Source: Allacma fusca
Taxonomy: Eukaryota > Arthropoda > Collembola > Symphypleona > Sminthuridae
DNA length: 64,000 bases
Direction: 5' to 3'
Assembly (NCBI GenBank): GCA_947179485.1
Contig: OX359248.1
Span: 46,200,847 to 46,264,846 of the forward strand
The notes below the pieces were generated by a model. It was not told the origin of the DNA, made no database searches, and worked only from the letters and a program-made list of their open reading frames with translations. Shown here in pieces: positions 3,801-26,992 of this stretch. Every line of letters starts with the position of its first letter. The stretch's first letter is position 1. A program made the position numbers and the translations under genes.

Positions 3801-5038
3801 GAATTATGGGCATACGCATAATCTGTAAAGACAGAAAATTTGGGGAAATTAAGCTTATTGAGAAAGCTGTGGAGGATTTCAGATGTTTGAATTTTATCAT
3901 GTGCGATCTGGGGTTCTTAAAAACATTTCCACACAGTGTTTCTGGTCAATTTCATGGGGATTAATTTGAATTTAGCATCATCTTCCGAAACCGCGGTCCT
4001 AGAACCGACACATATGAGGCAAGATCGAAGCAAACAAAATATCTATTTTTATTGCAAATCTTTAAAACAACCAATTTTATCCTACATTTCTGGTTCCTGA
4101 GCCAGGAATTTTGACTTATGTAAATGTTAATAGGCTCAAATGAATCCCAACAAAATCTGCTACAAATGCAGCGCAAAAACTCCAAAATGTTTTAACTAAC
4201 ACATCTGAAAATGTTCATTTTGAAAATGTTCAATGAATGAAATAGATTTTGAAAAATCTGAGAAAAGATTTGTTTGAAAATGGAGGAATCACTTTATCGT
4301 TATTTAAATGAGCCAGGGGGAGAAAATAGATATGAAACACTCTACACCAATCAATTAAAAACTTCTCAAGGACTATTTAATTTTCCAAATAAATTATAGA
4401 TCCATTCATATTAGTCATTTTACATTTGACACTTAACTACTGAAATATAATTCAAGACAGAAAGGAATAAGTTGTTGCAAATCATACGTAAACATGTACA
4501 TACATTTGTAGTTTAAAGCCCTATTTTTGACACATAAATTAAATCGAAGTGTGTGTATGGAATTTCGACTGTGTGTGTTTTGATTACTGTAATGTAGCAT
4601 TTTTCATTTTCATCGATATATATAACTGTTTCCGTTAAAATATTCACACTTTTCTTTAAATTCTCTTATTGTTTGCCCTTCATATTTGACAAAATGCACG
4701 TTTCAATCGTCAACTGTTCCCAAGTCCACTGGCAAGAGTTATCTGGCCGTACCGACAAATAAAATGATGCATACTGTACATGATGTTACTGTAAATGTTT
4801 AACTATGATCTAGTCACTTGCTCACTCATCATTGCTATTGCATGACTTTAACACGCAACTTGAACTTTAAACCATTAGATAACGCAAATCAAGTGTAGTA
4901 GATATGATTGTCCAGCAGTTCACCATCAAATGCTAGAAAATTCAGTCACAGCCAGAGACATAACACTTGATTTTTTCTGTCACAGCTCTTCAACCATTCT
5001 GACTGAAAGGATCCACTCTTTGTGACAGCAAGTTGAAA
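862..5038. other. intergenic, no gene seen
   Basis: This is AT-rich DNA between the coiled-coil gene and the aldehyde dehydrogenase. It holds the likely 3' UTR of the first gene (AATAAA at 1742-1747 and about 2086). The open frames here (for example 2133-2330 and 3698-3964) lack splice context and domain character, and I treat them as chance. No tRNA, array or clear transposon end was recognised. Confidence 0.5.
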
Positions 5039-8233
<3,195 letters not shown>

Positions 8234-8576
8234 ATCAATCTTCAATTGCCTTTTTTCCCAACTTCCGAAATGAAATTGAAGTTATATAATTAAATAAAAT
8301 GTAATTGTGTATCTTCGAATCAAGTTTTGATTTTAGACTGGGTTTCAAGATTTTAACCACGATTTTCTGAATAAACTGTGAGATTTGACGTATCCAGTAC
8401 TTTTTGACATGAGATTTATTTCTGCCAGAAGGAAGCATATATTTCCTTCTGAAGATGCATCTTCTTTAACCAAACATATAATACATATAACACATATATA
8501 CCCGAAGAATAATACAATTTGCTAGAGAATAGGGAAATGAAATATGTATTGCCATTTAATTCTTACATAGGCTGAT

Positions 8577-8690
8577 GGGAATAAAGGCATTGCGGTATTC
8601 CGTGCACAGATGAAACTTCCTGCCACAAGAAAGCCGTTTTACAGGCATTTCTGGAAAATGGGTGATGCTCGTTATCCAACAGATCAGGGA
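8577..8690 (+). pseudogene. decayed copy of the last ALDH3 exon
   Basis: Bases around 8617-8643 (TGCCACAAGAAAGCCGTTTT) match the functional exon at 8008-8030 (TGTCACAAGAAAGCAGTTTT) with few changes. The following GGGTGATGCTCGTTATCC matches GGGTGATTCTCGTTACCC at 8063-8080. About 15 bases between the two blocks are missing compared with the real exon and the frame is broken, so only a relic remains. It lies 340 bases after the intact gene's stop codon, on the same strand. This suggests an old tandem duplication or partial gene copy that has since decayed. Confidence 0.8.
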
Positions 8691-8699
8691 CAAAACAAC

Positions 8700-10300
8700 G
8701 TCCGCCAAAGTTAAGGGAAAGTTCCAAAAATATTGTACATATGTATGTATACGCATGTACATGCTATGTATGTAGTACATTGTTGCCCCACCATTCTAGC
8801 CCTCATAAGGGAATAACCCATTTGACATTCGAAACCCTACACATTTGATGGAAGTATTGTTGCAGATTTTCTAAAACTTCCGTGCATGTTCCCTATTACC
8901 TGACCAAGTAATACAGCTAATGAACCCGGAGGACAACGTTATGGGAAAGGTGACGGCCCTATGATTCTATGATGAACGTCCCTGGTAAACTGACAATGAG
9001 AATGACCAGTAACTAACAAGATTTGCGACAAGATGATTGCATATGTATTTACGTGAGTACTCTATATTCAGTACTCCTTTTGGGATGCGTTTTGTATATG
9101 TTTTTACTCTTCGTCTTGTATGTTTATATTTCACACTTAATAGAAGATTTACAAACTACTACTTCCGCTGCTACGTAAAATCCTCAAAAAAGTTTACATA
9201 TAGATTCCTAAAACTAGGCAAGAAAACTAATATTCTTTGGTTTTGTGGTTGCAGATTGTTTAGTATCAACAAAATCAAGTCACCACACAGTAGCATTACA
9301 AAAGATGTTCAATAACCATTGAGCCCCTGTAGGTTCTCCAATATCTAATAATCCTACATAAATATTGTAGAAGGTATTGTTTTGTACAAAATTATATTTT
9401 ACTGATAAACGTTAGGCCTCCTTCAGCATTTCAAAGTCAGAAGATCCAAGTGCAATCCAGTCAAACAGGATCCGAACTTCGTGAGGATGGAGAAGTCGCT
9501 CCTCTTAAGAAACCCCTCTTATTTCTAATTTAGTTTAGAAAATTCATCAGAACTTCTGTCTGTACAATTATGCAGATTACTGTAGATCTTGGAGGACCTA
9601 GGGGGGTATGAGGTTATTGAGCATCCTTCAATGTTGTTCAAATCAATGTTCATAGCTCATCCAGATTGACCACTACTCATAAGTTAATGTATCTATGTAT
9701 TGTTAGGTTGTGTAATAAGAAGAATTATCTATCCTAATAGGAAATACAAATACAGAAATATTGTTACCTTCTAATTTATTACTGTCAACCAGGAACAATG
9801 AGTATCTATTCAAAATAATTTTTTAAACTTTCATCGGGGACTTGAAGCATTTTCATGTATTGTTTAACAATTGTACGTAATACGGAGTTACATAACTGTT
9901 CTCAGTCGCTATACTTGGGTAAATGTTCCTATACAAATGTTATGAGATATATTTTTCATGGGACTATTTGGTATTATATAATCTCTCCACTATACATACA
10001 TATATAGAAATTAGACACAAAATTATACGCAAAATGTAAATGCGCACGGAGAATCTCTCAAAAATGTTCTTGTAAATATGTTTTATAGCGTAGCCAAGTA
10101 TCAAGATATGAATAGAATGTAAAAGAGAAACGGAACCAAAACAAATTCTCAGGATATCCTTAAAAATAAAACGAAAGGGAAATTCTCACACGCATGGAAA
10201 CCAAATGTGGGGGTATTTGAGATTCCTCATCCACATTCAATCAATCACCAACTCTACTGGAACCCAGTATGTAGTGTGAGGTCAGTTTCCTCTTCCATGA
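8700..10300. other. intergenic, no gene seen
   Basis: The stretch from the ALDH relic to the first cuticle promoter is AT-rich. A run of CATATGTATGTA-type simple sequence lies at about 8735-8785. The 92-residue open frame at 9037-9315 and the short frame near 9420-9530 show no recognisable domain and no convincing splice context. Confidence 0.4.
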
Positions 10301-10465: not shown

Positions 10466-12492
10466 ATGCAGGTGGTCAAGGTGAATTCAAAAATCTTTTA
10501 ATTGTTTTTACTTTCTTTCACCCAGAGCTTCATTAACATGTTTTTTTGTACAAAGTGCATTATTGTTGCCTGCGTGGTGACCCTGAGTTACGGCAGGATT
10601 GGTCCTTACAATGCATTGCGTGAGGCCCCCAACTCGAACTATGCCTCAACACAACCCCAAAATCAACCAGGACACATACAGTTCCAGAATTTCATGTACG
10701 GGTCCCGTCCATTAACCCTTTTACCTTCGTATGGACGTTCATCAAATTCCCTTACCGGAGCACAGCCACGATATGAGCCCCTTAAGCAGACACAAGTTCG
10801 GAGGTCCGCAGCGGCACATCAAATAGAAACGTCAGCATCACATGGGGAAGTGGTAACGGTTCCCCGAAGTCCAGATCAGTCTCCTGGCTCTACTGTCAAA
10901 AGGATTACATTAAGTACGGCCCCTACTTCACAACAGTTTATCCAGAATCCAGGACGCTTCTTACAACGGTTGGTTCCCTTTACAGTTTTTATCAATTCAT
11001 TTAATCAGCCCTGTAGACGTAAAAAACAAATCAAAAACAAATTCACTTAACCCTGTAATTATGACCAAAATTAGTTTTTTTAATATTATTGTCGTTGATT
11101 AATATATGAACATTTCTTATTTTGAAGATCCTCAGCTGAGACTCAATCATTTAATATCCATAGCCAACCTGCAGTATCAACAGCATCAGCTTTTGATGCA
11201 AAGAAGCTTCTCCCAGGTATAACCAGCTCGTACTCTGTCACTGATGGGTCCAAGAGTGTTCAAGAACAACCCGGAAAAACACATCAAATGAAAAGCCTTT
11301 ATCAACGGACACCTGCACAAGCATTTTCGACACCATACTCAGGTTCCAAAATTCAAGCGGAGCCAAGTTCTCATTCCGTCGTAAGAGCAGCAGCACATTT
11401 CGGAGCGGAGTCTGGTGACCGTCCTTTTTCACCGAGTAATGCTCAGTCGGAACCCCAACTTTTGTATGAGTCCGAACCCCTGTCGTATTCATACTCTATC
11501 CAAAATGTTCCACCGTACTCAACCCCAGAGGGAACTATCACCCATCAATCGCTGGTTCAAGGGGGAGGTTCCAGAAGTTACCAATCCTTGGTTGATACCA
11601 GCAGTTCGTCCAAATCTCAAACTCGTTATTCAGAACCCGACCCAACCCATACCTCCGAATTTGTGGAATTCATTCCATCTGTAGAAGAGACATATAGAAC
11701 ATCCTCTCTGGCCAAATCAGCCAGGCAAGTCCGACAGCGAGTTTCGCCAGGAACACCTGAAAGAGCTAACGACTTTGAATTCCCAGAGTCCGTTCGGTTG
11801 TCCTCCTCAAAACAAGACGAACCGCCCTACTTCGCCGCTTCCCCAATTGACACAGCAATCATCCCGGATGTTAAGCCTTCCAACCCAGTCTATTCTTTAA
11901 GAGTTTCGAGTAGCTTCTCGGCCACAGCCCCTAATGTTACGACCTACGTACCCTTTAAATCATTCACAGTCACAGAACCACCATCACCGCCGCAGCGACG
12001 AGAACCTTCAAAGCCTCCACGATCTACTCCTAGTTCCACACCTGGACCAACAAACCCTTATGAGGAAGAAGAATCCGATGAAGTCACACCTGTTACTGCT
12101 AATTCCGTTGGCGTCCAATCGTCTCCAATTTCTTTGTACCGTTACATTACAAATCAAAACCCAGAGATTTTGAGATTTAGTCAAACTGCTAATAGTCACG
12201 AGTGAGTTCAAATATTTCCATATTTTAAAAAAATATTATGCTTCTAAGAAATGCTACCACTTTTTTGTACTCCTTTACTAGATTCGAAACTTCGAATGGA
12301 ATTCGTGTTCAGGAAGAAACTGAAGTTGTAAATACTAATTCCGAGCCGGGAAGTGATGGAAGGTCGATTGTGAAAAAAGGATCTTACAGTTGGATTGCAC
12401 CAGATGGACAAAAGTATGAAGTGAGGTATACCGCTGATGCTTTTGGATTCCATCCCGAAGGGGATCACATTCCCAAGAACCTCCCTGTTTGA
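10466..12492 (+). CDS. secreted cuticle protein with C-terminal Rebers-Riddiford (chitin_bind_4) domain, copy 1
   Basis: Exons: 10466-10480, 10556-10968, 11128-12201, 12282-12492, giving 570 residues. The first exon encodes only MQVVK; the phase-0 intron then splits the signal peptide (MQVVK plus CIIVACVVTLSYG), a layout common in arthropod cuticle genes. The Met-rich open frame just upstream of 10556 is intron, because the paralog at 14849 uses the same short first exon. The middle of the protein is Ser/Pro/Thr/Gln-rich low-complexity sequence. It shares landmarks with the paralog: RYSEPDPTH, PGTPER followed by F..PESV, and NSVGVQS. The last 69 residues hold the chitin-binding module, with SYSWIAPDGQKYEVRYTADA and then GFHPEGDHIP. 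Expected role: a structural protein of the exoskeleton, binding chitin through this C-terminal domain. AATAAA is at 12643-12648. Confidence 0.9.
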
Positions 12493-14224: not shown

Positions 14225-14560
14225 AAGAGGCACATAAATGTATGGATGTATGAATGTATGGATGTGTGGACTTGTACAGTTACAGCTATTCTCAGCAGCT
14301 TCTTCTTTTTACCTGTAGTAATTACACAAATGAATCAGGTGTTTCATATATGGGACTATACACAGAATGCAGCGTGAGCACTGCATTAGCGTTGGAGTAA
14401 AGCTCTTGAGTAAATAAAAATATATGGGATTATTACATACATGCATAATGTGTGCCTATGTGCACCTTGCACCATGCATTTCTCGCTCAATTCCATTGTT
14501 GTAAAATACGCTAGCACTCACAATCGCAATAAGCAAAAGGTATGAAAAGGGACTTAAAAG
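14225..14560. other. non-coding DNA between fold-back element and copy-2 upstream region
   Basis: AT-rich sequence with a short ATGTATGGATGTATGAATG tract near 14239-14270. Nothing else was recognised. Confidence 0.4.
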
Positions 14561-14755
14561 AGAAATGCCACTAAAACTAATTTCCAGGATATCCTTAAAA
14601 GTATAAGGAAAGGGAAGCTATCACAGGTATGAAAGTCAAAGGTGGGGAGCGTATAGAATGGGCATATGCACAGTCAATCCAATAGTTTACTGGAGCAGAG
14701 AAAGTGATTTGGGGTCAGTTTCCCTTTTTATATACCGTACAAAGGACTTGAACAT

Positions 14756-14848: not shown

Positions 14849-17800
14849 ATGCAGGTCGTCTCGGTACGCTCAATTTAAAATCTTTAAGATTTTTACTGTG
14901 TCTTTCGATTTTTATCCAATTATTTTTTTTATTTTTATTTTCAAAGTGCATCCTTGTTTCTGTGGTGGTTCTGGGCAACGCCATGGTTACCGTTAATCTG
15001 GTCACGAGGGAGACCGACAATCGGAACTACATTCCAAACCAAGGGCCAGCAAAGCAGAGGAGACACTACCAGGGGGAGCCTCCTCAATTTGAAAATCGTT
15101 ACTGGTCTCATCCACCAACAATTCCAGCACCAAATGGATACCACAAAGCTCCAGGACATACTTTCAGAGAGAGACCACCCCGACACCCCCAATATGGGCC
15201 AACTTCACCCACAGAAACGTGGAGGTCAATGACACATGGACCAGAACCGTCCGCATCGTATGGACCAAACGTAAATGTTCTCCAACCTCCGAACCCCCCT
15301 CCTGAATCCATTGTGACCAAGATTACATTTACCACAGCCCCTGCACCTCCAATGTATCACCACCCACCCCCAACCATGGTTTTACAACGGTCGGTTACAC
15401 TTTTTATTTTTACATGTAATGAATCAATTTTTGTTAAGGAATATCTTTATTATTCCAAAATTTAAAATCTTAGGGATGCAGCAAATTATGGATATGAAGG
15501 AAAACCAGTGGAATTTTATGACCAGCAAAAGTGAGTTCTTATTCGGTATCCAGCGGTTTTACAATTTCGAAAGTTTAATGCAAAGTTTGGAAACACGCAG
15601 TTGTCAATGTTTGGTTTTCCCAAGGATTTTATAGTTTATTATTTGATTTTGAAGATACTCAACCGGGAACGCAGGATTTGAAACCCACAACCAGCTCACA
15701 GAATCGATAGCATCAGTCAATGACAGCTGGGGTAATAAACCTCTCCCTGCTTTACCCGGCTCATATACTAACACGGACAGGTATGAGGGAAATCAGGAGC
15801 AATCAATTGGAGCATTACAACCTTCACAAGTTGAGCAGTTGTCAAATAATTATCAAGTTTCAACGACACAACCCCTTCCGGATTCATATTCAGGGAACAC
15901 AAACACGTTAATACCAACACAGCCAAGCTCTTTTTCAGGTCCAGGAGGACCAGAACGTTCAGTAGCGGAATTTGACCGACTTCCGTCCTCGCCGGGTGTT
16001 GATCAGCCGGATGCTCAACGCTCTTACGAGCAAGGACCGAATACTCAGTTTTTTCAAAATGCTCCGTCGTCCACAATACCGTTGGAAGCTGTCAGTCATC
16101 CACCACCTGTCCCAAGAGAAGGTCAAGGAAATTATCCTCCTGCTAACCCTGAAGGAAACTACCAAACTGCTCCCAGAGAAGGTCCAGGAAATTATCCATC
16201 TGGGAATCCCGAATCAAACCACCAAACTGCTTCCAGAGACGGTCCCGGAAATTATCAACCTGCTAACCCTGAAGGAAACTACCAAACGGCTCCCAGAGAA
16301 GGTCAAGGAAATTATCAACCTGCTAACCCTGAAGGAAACTACCAAACGGTTCCCCGAGAAGGCCCCGGAAATTATCAACCTGCTAACACTGAAGGAAACT
16401 ACCAAACGGCTCCCAGAGAAGGTCAAGGGAATTATCAACCTGCTAATTCCGATGGAAACTATCAAACGGCTCCCAGAGAAGGTTCAGGAAATTATCCACC
16501 TGCTAACTCCGAAGGAAACTACCAAACTGCTTCCAGAGATGGTCCCGGAAATTATCAACCCGGTAACCCTGAAGGAAACTACCAAACTGATTCCAGAGAT
16601 GGTCCCGGAAATTATCAACCTGCTAACTCCGAAGGAAACTATCAAACTGCTTCCAGAGATGGTCCCGGAAATTACCCTCCTCCAATCCTCGAAGCAAACT
16701 ACCAAACGGCTCCCAGAGAAGGTCCAGGAAATTATCCATCTGGGAATCCCGAATCAAACCACCAAACTGCTTCCAGAGAAGGTCCCGGAAATTATCAACC
16801 TGCTAATTCCGAATCAAACTACCAAACAGCTCCCAGAGAAGGCCCAGGAAATTATCCACCTGGGAACCCCGAAGCAAACCACCTAACTGCTCCTAGAGAA
16901 GGTCCCGGAAATTACCCAGTTGCTCGCCCAGAAGCAAACTACCAAACTGCTTCCAACTATTTCCCCCCTCCAAGCTACCCACCCTCACTCGCTCCAAACA
17001 CTTTCTCCAGTTCACCCACGCCCCGGTACTCAGAACCGGATCCTACTCATGGGACCGATTCTGTAGACTCTGATCCCTCAGCACAAGAGACATACACGGC
17101 AATAGCTCCTCCAGAATCACCCGGTCAATTCCAACATCCAGCTTTCCCTGGAACCCCTGAAAGAGTTCCAGAGACCTTTACTTACCCAGATTCTGTTCCA
17201 CAGCGTTACTCACAACCAAACGATCAATCGTTTTCAGCCGGGAGGGATAATTTTGAAGGAAATCCAGATAATCAGCCATTCCTCCCAATATTTGGTCTAA
17301 CAGCTCCCACTAACTACCCCGCACCAGCTCCTACAATTTCAAACTACATAGACGCTGGACCTGCTGAACCAAATGCAGAAATACAACCGCCACCACAACC
17401 TTTTAATCCTCAACTAGATCCTTCAAGCTCCATACCCAAGGACACAACCTCATTCGGACAGGGATTCGAGGATATTACACCCTCAGCTGATAATTCCATA
17501 GGGGTTCAATCTTACTCAGCTTCGTCAGACGATTACAACAGAAATCAAGGACACGAGCTTGTGAAATATAATCAAACAACCAACGGTCTGGGATATGATA
17601 AGCATGAGTGAGTCAAAATCCTTTTATATTTTTCTCAAATGTTTAAGAAATGCTGCCCTATTTTTACTATTTTTATCAGATTCGAAACTACAAATGGAAT
17701 CCACTTTGAAGAAGAAACTGCAATGGTAAATACGGGGTCTCCAAATAATTACCAGGCTCCATCGGAGAATGCTGGAAGCAGCATTGTTAAAAGAGGATCT

Positions 17801-17908
17801 TACAGTTGGATTGCGCCAAATGGACAAAAGTTTGAAGTGAGGTACACTGCGGATGCTTTTGGATTCCACCCCGAAGGAGATCACATTCCCAAGAGCCTCC
17901 CTGTCTGA
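14849..17908 (+). CDS. resilin-like cuticle protein: 14 x 20-residue Tyr/Gly/Pro repeats plus Rebers-Riddiford domain, copy 2
   Basis: Exons: 14849-14863, 14947-15389, 15474-15530, 15655-17607, 17680-17908; 898 residues with every phase consistent. Signal peptide: MQVVS plus CILVSVVVLGNAMV, split after codon 5 as in copy 1. Residues ~30-320 are Pro/Ser/Thr/Gln-rich. Residues ~325-604 are 14 head-to-tail units of 20 residues of the type REGPGNYQPANPEGNYQTAP, each usually with two Tyr in a Gly/Pro/Asn context. A tail shared with copy 1 follows (RYSEPDPTH, PGTPER, NSIGVQS). Residues ~824-898 hold the chitin-binding domain, with SYSWIAPNGQKFEVRYTADA and GFHPEGDHIP. Architecture, not sequence identity, resembles pro-resilin: elastic Tyr-bearing repeats on a chitin anchor. 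Dityrosine cross-linking and rubber-like function are inference. Copy 2 has one extra short exon (15474-15530) that copy 1 lacks. Confidence 0.9.
16112..16951 (+). repeat. coding minisatellite, 14 tandem units of exactly 60 bp
   Basis: The period is exactly 60 bp with no indel through 14 units, so the frame never shifts. Units vary at a few codons: RE/RD, GQ/GP/GS, YP/YQ, AN/GN, PEG/PES/SEG/PEA. Units 2 and 11 encode the same 20 residues and are almost identical at the DNA level. This suggests a larger block nine units long was copied, or that gene conversion occurred. Confidence 0.95.
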
Positions 17909-20766: not shown

Positions 20767-22373
20767 TTAATTAGGGCATTTGCGGTGCACGATGGACGGT
20801 CCCGACTCTTCATACTCTTTCTTGGAGACGCACAATTGAGAGAAGTTAGGCATTGCAGCAGTCATTGATCCTCCAGTCCAAACAGTGTGTTTCCGCTCGG
20901 GTGGCGCTATGACTTTAACTGGTACTGAGGTTGATGATACCAAAGCGGTCATTTCCTTCTTCAAACGCTCAACCATGCCCGGGAGCATAGTAGTGCCTCC
21001 AGAAAGTATAATATTAGCATACAGGGCCTAAACAAAATTATAAGGTAATAATAGCCAATAGCCATATAAAAAAATACCAGGTAACTCAATACGGACATAA
21101 AAATAGAAACTACAAAACACAAACAAGCTCTTCTTACTTTCCGAATCGAAAAATCATCGGTTCTATTAATCGATTCGTAAATAGTATGATGAATCCCACT
21201 GGAGTCCTTGCCTACTAGGTACGGTCGGAAAATAGCCTCTGGACATCGGAATCTCTCGTTTCCAATTGAAATTATTTCTCCATCAGGTAATTCATAGGAT
21301 CTTCCGGACGAGAGCGGAGTTGTTGGAGCAGCCAATTCTTCTTCTAGATCCAGAGCCACGTAACACAGCTTTTCTTTAATTTCACGAACAATCTCACGTT
21401 CAGCGGATGTCTCGAAATGATAACCACGTTCGGCGAGGGCGCTTTTGAGGTAGTCCGTCAGGTCACTACCAGATACATCAAAATAAGGGTAGGCTAAGGC
21501 GTTTTTCAGTGCGTAACCTAAAGTAAACAACATACACTACAAATAAACATTTCATTCTTAAGATCTCTTGCATTTGTTCCAGGTGTTTAAGTTATAGGAG
21601 GACTTCGCACTCAATTTTCTTACAAGGTAAAATCAATAATGTCCAAATGAATGGATGTACAAATAATTTTCGTATTGTGTTAATTATGGATGTAGCTAAA
21701 ATGCATATAAGCATTTAAAAAAAAAATTAAATTATTGATAATACTTGAGTGAGATACTTTAAGTAGTATCTACCTTCGTAAACTGGGAAAGTGTTGGTGA
21801 CCCCATCCCCAGAATCCACAACAAGACCAGTGGTTCTACCAGACCCGAACAATGCCATCACGGCTTGTATGGCAATAAACATCGCCGGAGTTTTGAAAGT
21901 TTCAAACATGATTTGTGTCATCCTTTCACGGTTAGGTTTTGAATTCATCGGAGCTTCAGTTAGTAGAATGGCGTGTTCATCTGGAGCAACCTGAAGTTTG
22001 TTGTAGATAACATGATGCCAAATACGCTCCAAGTCTTCCCAATTAGTAACCATACCGCGCTCGATGGGATACTTCAAATCCAGTAGATTTCTTTCCTTCA
22101 GAACCTCATCACCGACGTATAAATCCTTTGGAAGGGTTCCCTGGGACGAAAATGTTAGTATGGTTTAAGTTTTTTTTAATAATGTTTACACTTCTAAATA
22201 TTTGATTTCCTTTAAGAAACTGTCATGGTTATTGTTACATTAGTTACCGGTTCAAGTGGTCTGCCTACAACTGATGGTAAAATAACCCGGGGAGCGTCGT
22301 CACCGGACAGACCAGCTTTGCATGTCCCAGAACCATTGTCAATAACAATAACTGGAGTCTCAGCGTTGGACAT
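20767..22373 (-). CDS. divergent actin
   Basis: Exons in transcript order: 22373-22248, 22140-21774, 21517-21138, 21027-20767. Splice sites are GT/AG, phases 0, 1 and 0, and the protein is 377 residues (canonical actins are 375-376). Nearly every actin landmark is present: [10 protein letters not shown] and [15 protein letters not shown] phosphate loops, [87 protein letters not shown] and [11 protein letters not shown]. It is clearly diverged from conserved muscle or cytoplasmic actins (VDNGSG is IDNGSG; the last residues are KCPN rather than KCF). The DNase-binding loop between VGRP and YVGDE is four residues shorter, reading LEPGTLPKDL. ATP binding looks preserved, but filament contacts made by that loop should differ. 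A tissue- or stage-restricted actin, or an actin-like protein, are both possible. Confidence 0.93.
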
Positions 22374-26083: not shown

Positions 26084-26507
26084 TTAATACTCCACTGCAA
26101 ACGAATTATCACTACTGCAGTATCCCGACCTCAAAAGCCGTAAATCTGGAAATATTCAAAATGTAAACCGTTATGAATTTCATTGTTTTAATTTTTGAAA
26201 ATGATTAAATGTTTCTAAAAAATTTAAAAGCAAACTAACACGGCTGACACTGGCGTCTTTCACACTCAAAGGAGCATTGGTTGCTGTAGGTCTTCCCATT
26301 ATTTGCACACACAGGACTAACGTTGTATGGGCAGGGACAGGTGCTCACGCAATTTCGACCCGATGGTCTAACTTGAGATTCCAAAAGGTCGGGCGGAGGT
26401 TGATTTAGATACATTGGTGGACGGTTGTACAGCCATTGGTAACGAAGGTTACAATCAATTGAACTCACAAGAAGACACAAAGTGATAAAACCGGTAATGG
26501 TCTTCAT
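26084..26507 (-). CDS. secreted Kazal-type protease inhibitor, single domain (gene 1)
   Basis: Exons: 26507-26240 and 26145-26084, phase 1, giving 109 residues. The first exon read straight through would end after 90 residues. The donor GTTAGT at 26239 and acceptor TTTCCAG ending at 26146 remove that stop and supply the missing last Kazal cysteine in RLLRSGYC. Signal peptide: residues 1-19 (MKTITGFITLCLLVSSIDC). A Pro-rich linker with NRPPMYLNQPPPD follows. The Kazal core has C-x7-C-x10-C-x3-C spacing, with PVCANNGKTYSNQC as its signature. Eight cysteines (53, 57, 59, 67, 78, 82, 87, 99) exceed the usual six, so a fourth disulfide is likely. It should be extracellular and inhibit serine proteases; the target is unknown. 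The second exon is short and rests on domain logic plus splice sites. Confidence 0.8.
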
Positions 26508-26992
26508 TATGTTCGTTGAGAGTTCTATGTAACTTCGAATATGTATATCTATGTTGTATTTAGTACGGGAGTAAAAGCGTAATTATGAGCAATAATTCAT
26601 TGTTTTAACTTTTCCCCAAAATATTTGATGCAGGTAATACTATGGAAGCTCTGTCCGCAGTCAAGTTCAAATATAAACTGTCTCCCAGCCAGGAATATCT
26701 CCTTACATTTATATGCGCTTAATCTTGCATGTTCTAATTCTTAATGCAATTTACTAGTTCAATCAGCGGTTTCCTCATGAGGAATTGGTGTCTTCTAGAA
26801 CTTGTTCTCAAATCAAGACTCAAATGACGTCGGTGATTAATTATGAAATGTTTCTATTTATTATGCTTTCGTGGAACTGAGATTGAAAGTGGAAACAACT
26901 AGACCCTATACAATTATAGTAGTTTGTTGACTGGGCTATGGCCATTCCATCAACGACCTCAATTTGCATGTATATTTTAATTAAGGGAATTA

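Follow-up and report, generated by a model that had tools for sequence, protein, structure and literature searches.

The gene at positions 14849-17908 of the window (the whole stretch of 64,000 nucleotides of Allacma fusca DNA analysed here) raises the question of whether a springtail cuticle protein that joins a long array of tyrosine-bearing repeats to a chitin-binding domain is a resilin, a resilin-like protein of separate origin, or a cuticle protein with no special elasticity. A first-pass annotation had described Tyr repeats followed by a C-terminal Rebers-Riddiford (R&R) domain; this order was retained in our gene model, with the correction that the stretch holds four introns. As modelled, the gene comprises five exons with GT-AG introns throughout and a single open frame of 898 residues, and it has two close paralogues, a tandem copy within the window and a third copy on contig C1. 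Its features are the following:

14849-14863, forward strand: exon 1, 15 nt; all members of the paralogue trio have a 15-nt exon 1 and start with MQVV
14849..14997, across intron 1 (exon 2 begins at 14947), forward strand: start codon and apparent signal peptide MQVVSCILVSVVVLGNA, recognized by eye
14947-15389, forward strand: exon 2, Pro-rich N-terminal region, with place and splice phase as in both paralogues
15474-15530, forward strand: exon 3, 57 nt; an exon of this length occupies the same place in the C1 paralogue and is missing from the tandem copy as modelled
15655-17607, forward strand: exon 4, low-complexity, containing the repeat array (gene model)
16112-16951, forward strand: repeat array of 14 tandem units of 60 nt or 20 residues, PREGPGNYQPANPEGNYQTA type (TRF and gene model)
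17603..17893, split by the intron 17608-17679, forward strand: R&R chitin-binding domain (Pfam Chitin_bind_4), RR-1 type (Pfam and tree)
17680-17908, stop included, forward strand: exon 5, 229 nt, carrying most of the R&R domain

The model is backed by the paralogue on the other contig, in which exons of 15, 57 and 229 nt also occur as exons 1, 3 and 5. The N-terminus is hydrophobic by eye, a feature common to the three paralogues, and the end of the signal peptide was likewise placed by eye.

Elsewhere in the window, open frames at 5037-8233 on the forward strand were recognized by eye as likely exons of a class 3 aldehyde dehydrogenase, one piece of which gave no match in a Pfam scan, and a short similar fragment at about 8571-8714 may be a decayed duplicate of the last of these exons. 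Pieces of an actin gene were found on the reverse strand at 20961-22164 (Pfam Actin, E 1.2e-20 and 4.9e-43), as was a Kazal-type protease inhibitor domain at 26235-26582 (Pfam). Rfam and tRNA scans of the 64-kb window, the latter at bacterial settings, returned no matches, and a sigma-70 promoter scan was set aside as meaningless for animal DNA.

The C-terminal R&R domain proposed earlier was recovered by the Pfam scan, in which Chitin_bind_4 was the single family found in the window protein (residues 822-894, E 7.7e-14, 52.2 bits against a cut-off of 25); the one match among sequences of solved chains was 9l0p_A, 'Chitin binding protein' (E 8.6e-7). Searches of the 392,743,791-base assembly (91 contigs) gave at least 150 Chitin_bind_4 matches, 150 of the 236 candidates having been scored. 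A domain tree was built from 26 rows, namely 25 selected matches from the Allacma fusca genome, which are no survey of the family, and one fly resilin domain entered by hand, and it split into two halves of 13 rows each at 99/99. The window gene, the tandem copy and the C1 copy fell in the half whose domains have a GFxPxGDHLP-like ending, which we take, from the consensus of that type, to be RR-1, and the other half, of RR-2 type, held the fly resilin domain together with two loci bearing YGAPS repeats that are discussed below. With 10 of the 22 inner branches open and a long branch for the fly domain, only this main split was used. Judged from its domain, the window gene is a CPR-family cuticular protein gene of RR-1 type, and chitin binding by its product is inferred from the R&R domain. 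The first-pass annotation had also taken this to be the same domain as in pro-resilin, which holds for the R&R consensus and fails for the subtype, pro-resilin carrying RR-2 (PMC4444123).

The array occupies residues 325-604, entirely within exon 4, and consists of 14 units of 20 residues without indels, with 25 Tyr; TRF (scores of 1025 at period 60 and 1128 at period 180), the gene model and the Tyr counts per unit all agree with the 14 Tyr-bearing units first reported. The unit consensus is P-R-E-G-P-G-N-Y-(P/Q)-P-A-N-P-E-G-N-Y-Q-T-A, a GNYQ unit that, as had been claimed, does not resemble the YGAP type of insect resilin, and by eye its two halves look like loose copies of EGxNYQxA. All 14 units agree at Arg 2, Gly 4, Gly 6, Asn 7, Tyr 8, Asn 16 and Thr 19. 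The first Tyr (position 8) is thus always present and the second (position 17) is kept in 11 units and replaced by His in three, so that Tyr stands at 25 of 28 sites, with gaps of 9 (11 times), 11 (10 times) and 20 (three times), an evenness that none of 10,000 residue shuffles matched. The array contains 14.3% Gly and 16.4% Pro, is high in Asn, Gln and Glu (GRAVY -1.71), and lacks Cys, Trp, Phe, Lys and Met. A genome search with it returned four matches at E 0.001, all of them in the array itself or at its edge. Among units, pN/pS was 0.45 in the coding frame, and the two alternative frames gave 1.34 and 0.82. The in-frame value is to be read as support and not as a formal test, since unit pairs are non-independent; taken with the retention of Tyr, it suggests that the encoded residues are under selection.

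We hypothesize that this gene encodes a cuticle protein that is anchored to chitin, has a disordered spacer open to cross-linking through Tyr, and resembles resilin by convergence, a candidate function to which we assign a probability of about one half. The protein would be secreted by means of its apparent signal peptide and tied to chitin by the C-terminal RR-1 domain, while the central exon, predicted to be disordered, would set a Tyr about every 10 residues along a hydrophilic chain of Gly, Pro, Asn, Gln and Glu. After secretion, these Tyr might be joined as di- or trityrosine or other phenolic cross-links, and the resulting network, hydrated and pinned to chitin, could be pliant in the manner of resilin with an origin of its own. 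That the protein works like resilin is moderately plausible; against a pliant spacer stands the tandem paralogue, which manages without the array.

Structure prediction is consistent with this proposal. AlphaFold2 gave exon 4 a mean pLDDT of 38.3 and a single 4-residue helix, weakly suggesting that the exon is without a fold, low pLDDT from an alignment of three rows being weak proof of disorder, and in the exon-5 part of the domain it placed four strands with modest confidence (pLDDT 63.1, also three rows). A charge-hydropathy test put the window array on the disordered side and was set aside, having placed the folded R&R domain on that side as well and the C1 array on the ordered one. Elasticity has been linked to Pro and Gly content and to hydration (PMC7794388, PMC5703643). 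The P+G content of the window array, 30.7%, is well below the approximately 45% quoted for resilin (PMC7794388) and far below the 53.3% of the fly unit, but near the 27.3% of the 11-residue mosquito unit. Both units were entered by hand; the mosquito unit, read as a ring, matches the consensus in PMC7794388, and the fly unit differs in one letter from the consensus there. A recombinant Anopheles protein of Group IV is reported to be elastic (PMC10743668), and convergence is plausible in principle, several independent origins having been stated for elastic proteins (PMC3291537).

The main alternative is that the product is an ordinary RR-1 cuticle protein in which the array is slippage-prone, low-complexity filler, free to grow and shrink, its Tyr, if used, serving general hardening with no special elasticity. 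The comparison with the paralogues bears on this point, and two further features of the window are needed for it:

10466-10480, 10556-10968, 11128-12201 and 12282-12492, forward strand: exons of the tandem paralogue, 570 residues, same domain, no array (gene model)
14555..14647, forward strand: non-coding block of 93 nt that shares 80% identity with 10120-10212

The tandem paralogue lies 4.4 kb upstream of the window gene, start to start, and agrees with it in start, splice phases and domain; its model has no exon 3. The third copy (L037 1198-4973, contig C1, about 57.94 Mb) is an RR-1 paralogue of 1104 residues with an array of 288 residues of PTYSAPASA type, which holds 31 Tyr with gaps mainly of 9, 7 or 11, and the three genes follow one exon plan; a YSAP-type query of the genome gave 16 matches, three of them within the C1 gene. 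The filler reading is favoured by the restriction of the array to one of the two tandem copies, by the dissimilar array of the third copy, and by the identity of units 2 and 11 (60/60 nt), which points to copying between units. A common origin of the window and C1 arrays received no support (score 77, equalled in 1986 of 2000 shuffles), and the window array against the stretch preceding the C1 array scored 61, equalled in 717 of 2000; a deep common origin is conceivable. A difference in the placement of the two arrays relative to a shared RYSxPD anchor was also considered; in the C1 copy, the best match to this anchor falls inside the array and another falls before it. A remnant unit in the tandem copy, plausible by eye, was rejected, as 1190 of 2000 protein shuffles and 407 of 2000 codon (DNA) shuffles were as good and higher scores occurred elsewhere in the same protein, and therefore gain of the array in one tandem copy and loss from the other are indistinguishable. 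Over a 41-codon core of the domain, pS was 0.29 between the two window copies vs 0.71 and 0.67 for the other pairs, whereas in the protein tree the window gene and the C1 copy form a pair (85/92); we prefer the synonymous differences, by which the two window copies appear to be the closest pair. The 93-nt blocks lie 202 nt before the start codon of the window gene and 254 nt before that of the tandem copy and are possibly a regulatory element shared by both cuticle genes; upstream of the C1 copy, the search for this block found nothing beyond matches of 10-15 nt.

Repeats with Tyr and Pro in near RR-1 relatives also speak for filler. A Tyr-repeat scan covered 45 loci, many of them overlapping and most spanning 1.5 kb on either side of the match. 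Of the five RR-1 relatives that come next in the tree, four (L030, L031, L032 and L033) have Tyr/Pro/Ala repeats, of SYSAPAPAAPVQ and APYSAPYSPPAPV types, and the fifth, L034, had none within the stretch scanned; the segments flagged at L001, L007, L008, L021 and L035 were overlaps with the domain itself. Such repeats, in the C1 copy as in these relatives, may be ordinary cuticle filler. Since Tyr-bearing repeats are not rare among the scanned cuticle genes, the distinctive part of the window gene is its hydrophilic unit of Asn, Gln, Glu and Gly, and since other RR-1 genes of this genome have Tyr/Pro repeats too, a Tyr array by itself argues weakly for a rubber, elasticity being a property that sequence does not reveal. 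Set against filler are the low pN/pS in the coding frame and the Tyr at 25 of 28 sites, which suggest selection on the residues, and we consider this alternative a real possibility, though not one on which we would settle.

A different role for the same composition would be that of a hydrophilic gel or coating, in which the Asn-, Gln-, Glu- and Gly-rich array would hold water at a soft or adhesive cuticle surface and Tyr would act as a phenolic glue instead of a rubber cross-link. The GRAVY value and the abundance of Asn, Gln and Glu fit such a role, whereas a protein with an R&R domain would be expected in the chitin-bearing layers of the cuticle more than at its surface, and we regard the gel or coating as improbable.

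The remaining question is whether the window gene could be resilin itself. When the R&R domain of fly resilin, entered by hand, was searched against the genome, 111 matches were listed, the best at C12:8126909 (52% identity), followed by C10:6234900 and C10:6217111, and neither the window gene nor its tandem copy was among those listed. No tandem repeat was found by TRF across 3.2 kb at C12:8126909. The two C10 loci, at about 6.2 Mb, are candidates (L023 4741-5750 and L024 4522-5500) that combine an RR-2 domain with short YGAPS / PSSSYGSP repeats: the exon with the RR-2 domain is preceded by Gly-rich repeats (in L023 a single YGAPSGG, in L024 two SYGAPSGG) and followed by a further open stretch (SGYGAPSGGGGHSGPSSSYGSPSPSSGYGAPSGGYGG in L023, SGYNAPSGGSSQSAPSSSYGSPSPPSSGGYGG in L024). 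These repeats are similar to the resilin-type repeats of insects with their PSS[S/Q]YGAP core (PMC10743668); their TRF copy numbers are low, 2.3 and 2.0, and no EPPVNSYLPPS motif was seen by eye in the first exons of either locus. By domain and motif, L023 and L024 are likelier pro-resilin genes than the window gene. A simple tandem repeat in L023 (8331-8829, KKKQNVD-like), open in several frames on both strands, is probably an artefact of the open-frame listing, and the RR-2 locus L019 carries a Tyr/Pro stretch of YGPP, YGAP and NYSPAP type and is another possible resilin-like gene. The N-terminal motif of resilin, xxEPPVNSYLPPS (PMC10743668), is absent from the window protein, where the best loose match within residues 16-80 was equalled in 888 of 5000 shuffles.

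Orthology of the window gene with insect pro-resilin, for which Andersen's features are seen in outline (R&R consensus, apparent signal peptide and short Gly/Pro repeats, the last in the form of the 14 units; PMC10743668) and the better-placed RR-2 loci have just about two repeat copies by TRF, is rejected on its RR-1 domain and missing N-terminal motif and is very unlikely also because RR-2 and YGAPS-type repeats are paired at two other loci and the window copies are missing from the 111 matches listed for the hand-entered fly domain, itself a long branch in the tree. The independence from resilin that had been suggested for this protein is thus supported, its domain being of another type and likelier resilin genes lying elsewhere, and a rubber-like role, if it has one, would be of separate origin.

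Resilin has been proposed in the jumping apparatus of springtails from autofluorescence at 405 nm (PMC9336013), and a springtail resilin gene did not appear to be described in any of the open-licence PMC papers listed by our searches, judged mostly by titles and the beginnings of abstracts and, for PMC9336013 and PMC10169344, by passages of the text. The present analysis names candidates, namely the pair of RR-2 loci whose short repeats are of YGAPS type and the RR-1 trio with differing Tyr arrays. The trio is a natural comparison, in which nearly alike chitin anchors carry a GNYQ array, a PTYSAPASA array or none. Carrying our proposal further, one small RR-1 family of springtails might have given rise twice, with dissimilar units (GNYQ and PTYSAPASA), to chitin-tied, cross-linked Tyr-array elastomers of pliant cuticle, perhaps of the furca, independently of resilin, an extension that we find rather doubtful; action of the window gene in the furca is speculation.

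Several known systems come close to the window protein. Insect pro-resilin (Drosophila; Group II, PMC10743668) is secreted, as the window protein probably is, and also has an R&R domain, tandem Gly/Pro repeats and evenly spaced Tyr, but its domain is RR-2, its units are of YGAP type, its N-terminus bears EPPVNSYLPPS and its P+G content is higher, whereas the window gene combines an RR-1 domain with a GNYQ unit in an array situated solely N-terminal of the domain. The Group IV resilin-like proteins share short Tyr repeats (an 11-residue consensus in mosquito) and a similar P+G content, and differ in the PSS[S/Q]YGAP core and in having no R&R domain (PMC10743668). The RR-1 CPR cuticular proteins have the same domain subtype and a low-complexity remainder, although the 14-unit GNYQ array has no match elsewhere in the Allacma fusca genome at E 0.001. 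The crayfish protein Cq-M13, a chitin-binding cuticle protein rich in Tyr, Gly and Pro, has also been likened to pro-resilin; it differs in its RR-2 domain, and a search of the text found no use of the word 'repeat' (PMC4444123). Finally, the Motif 2 (YLP-like) repeat proteins offer a precedent for regular repeats with conserved Tyr in cuticle proteins, resilin included (PMC2932725).
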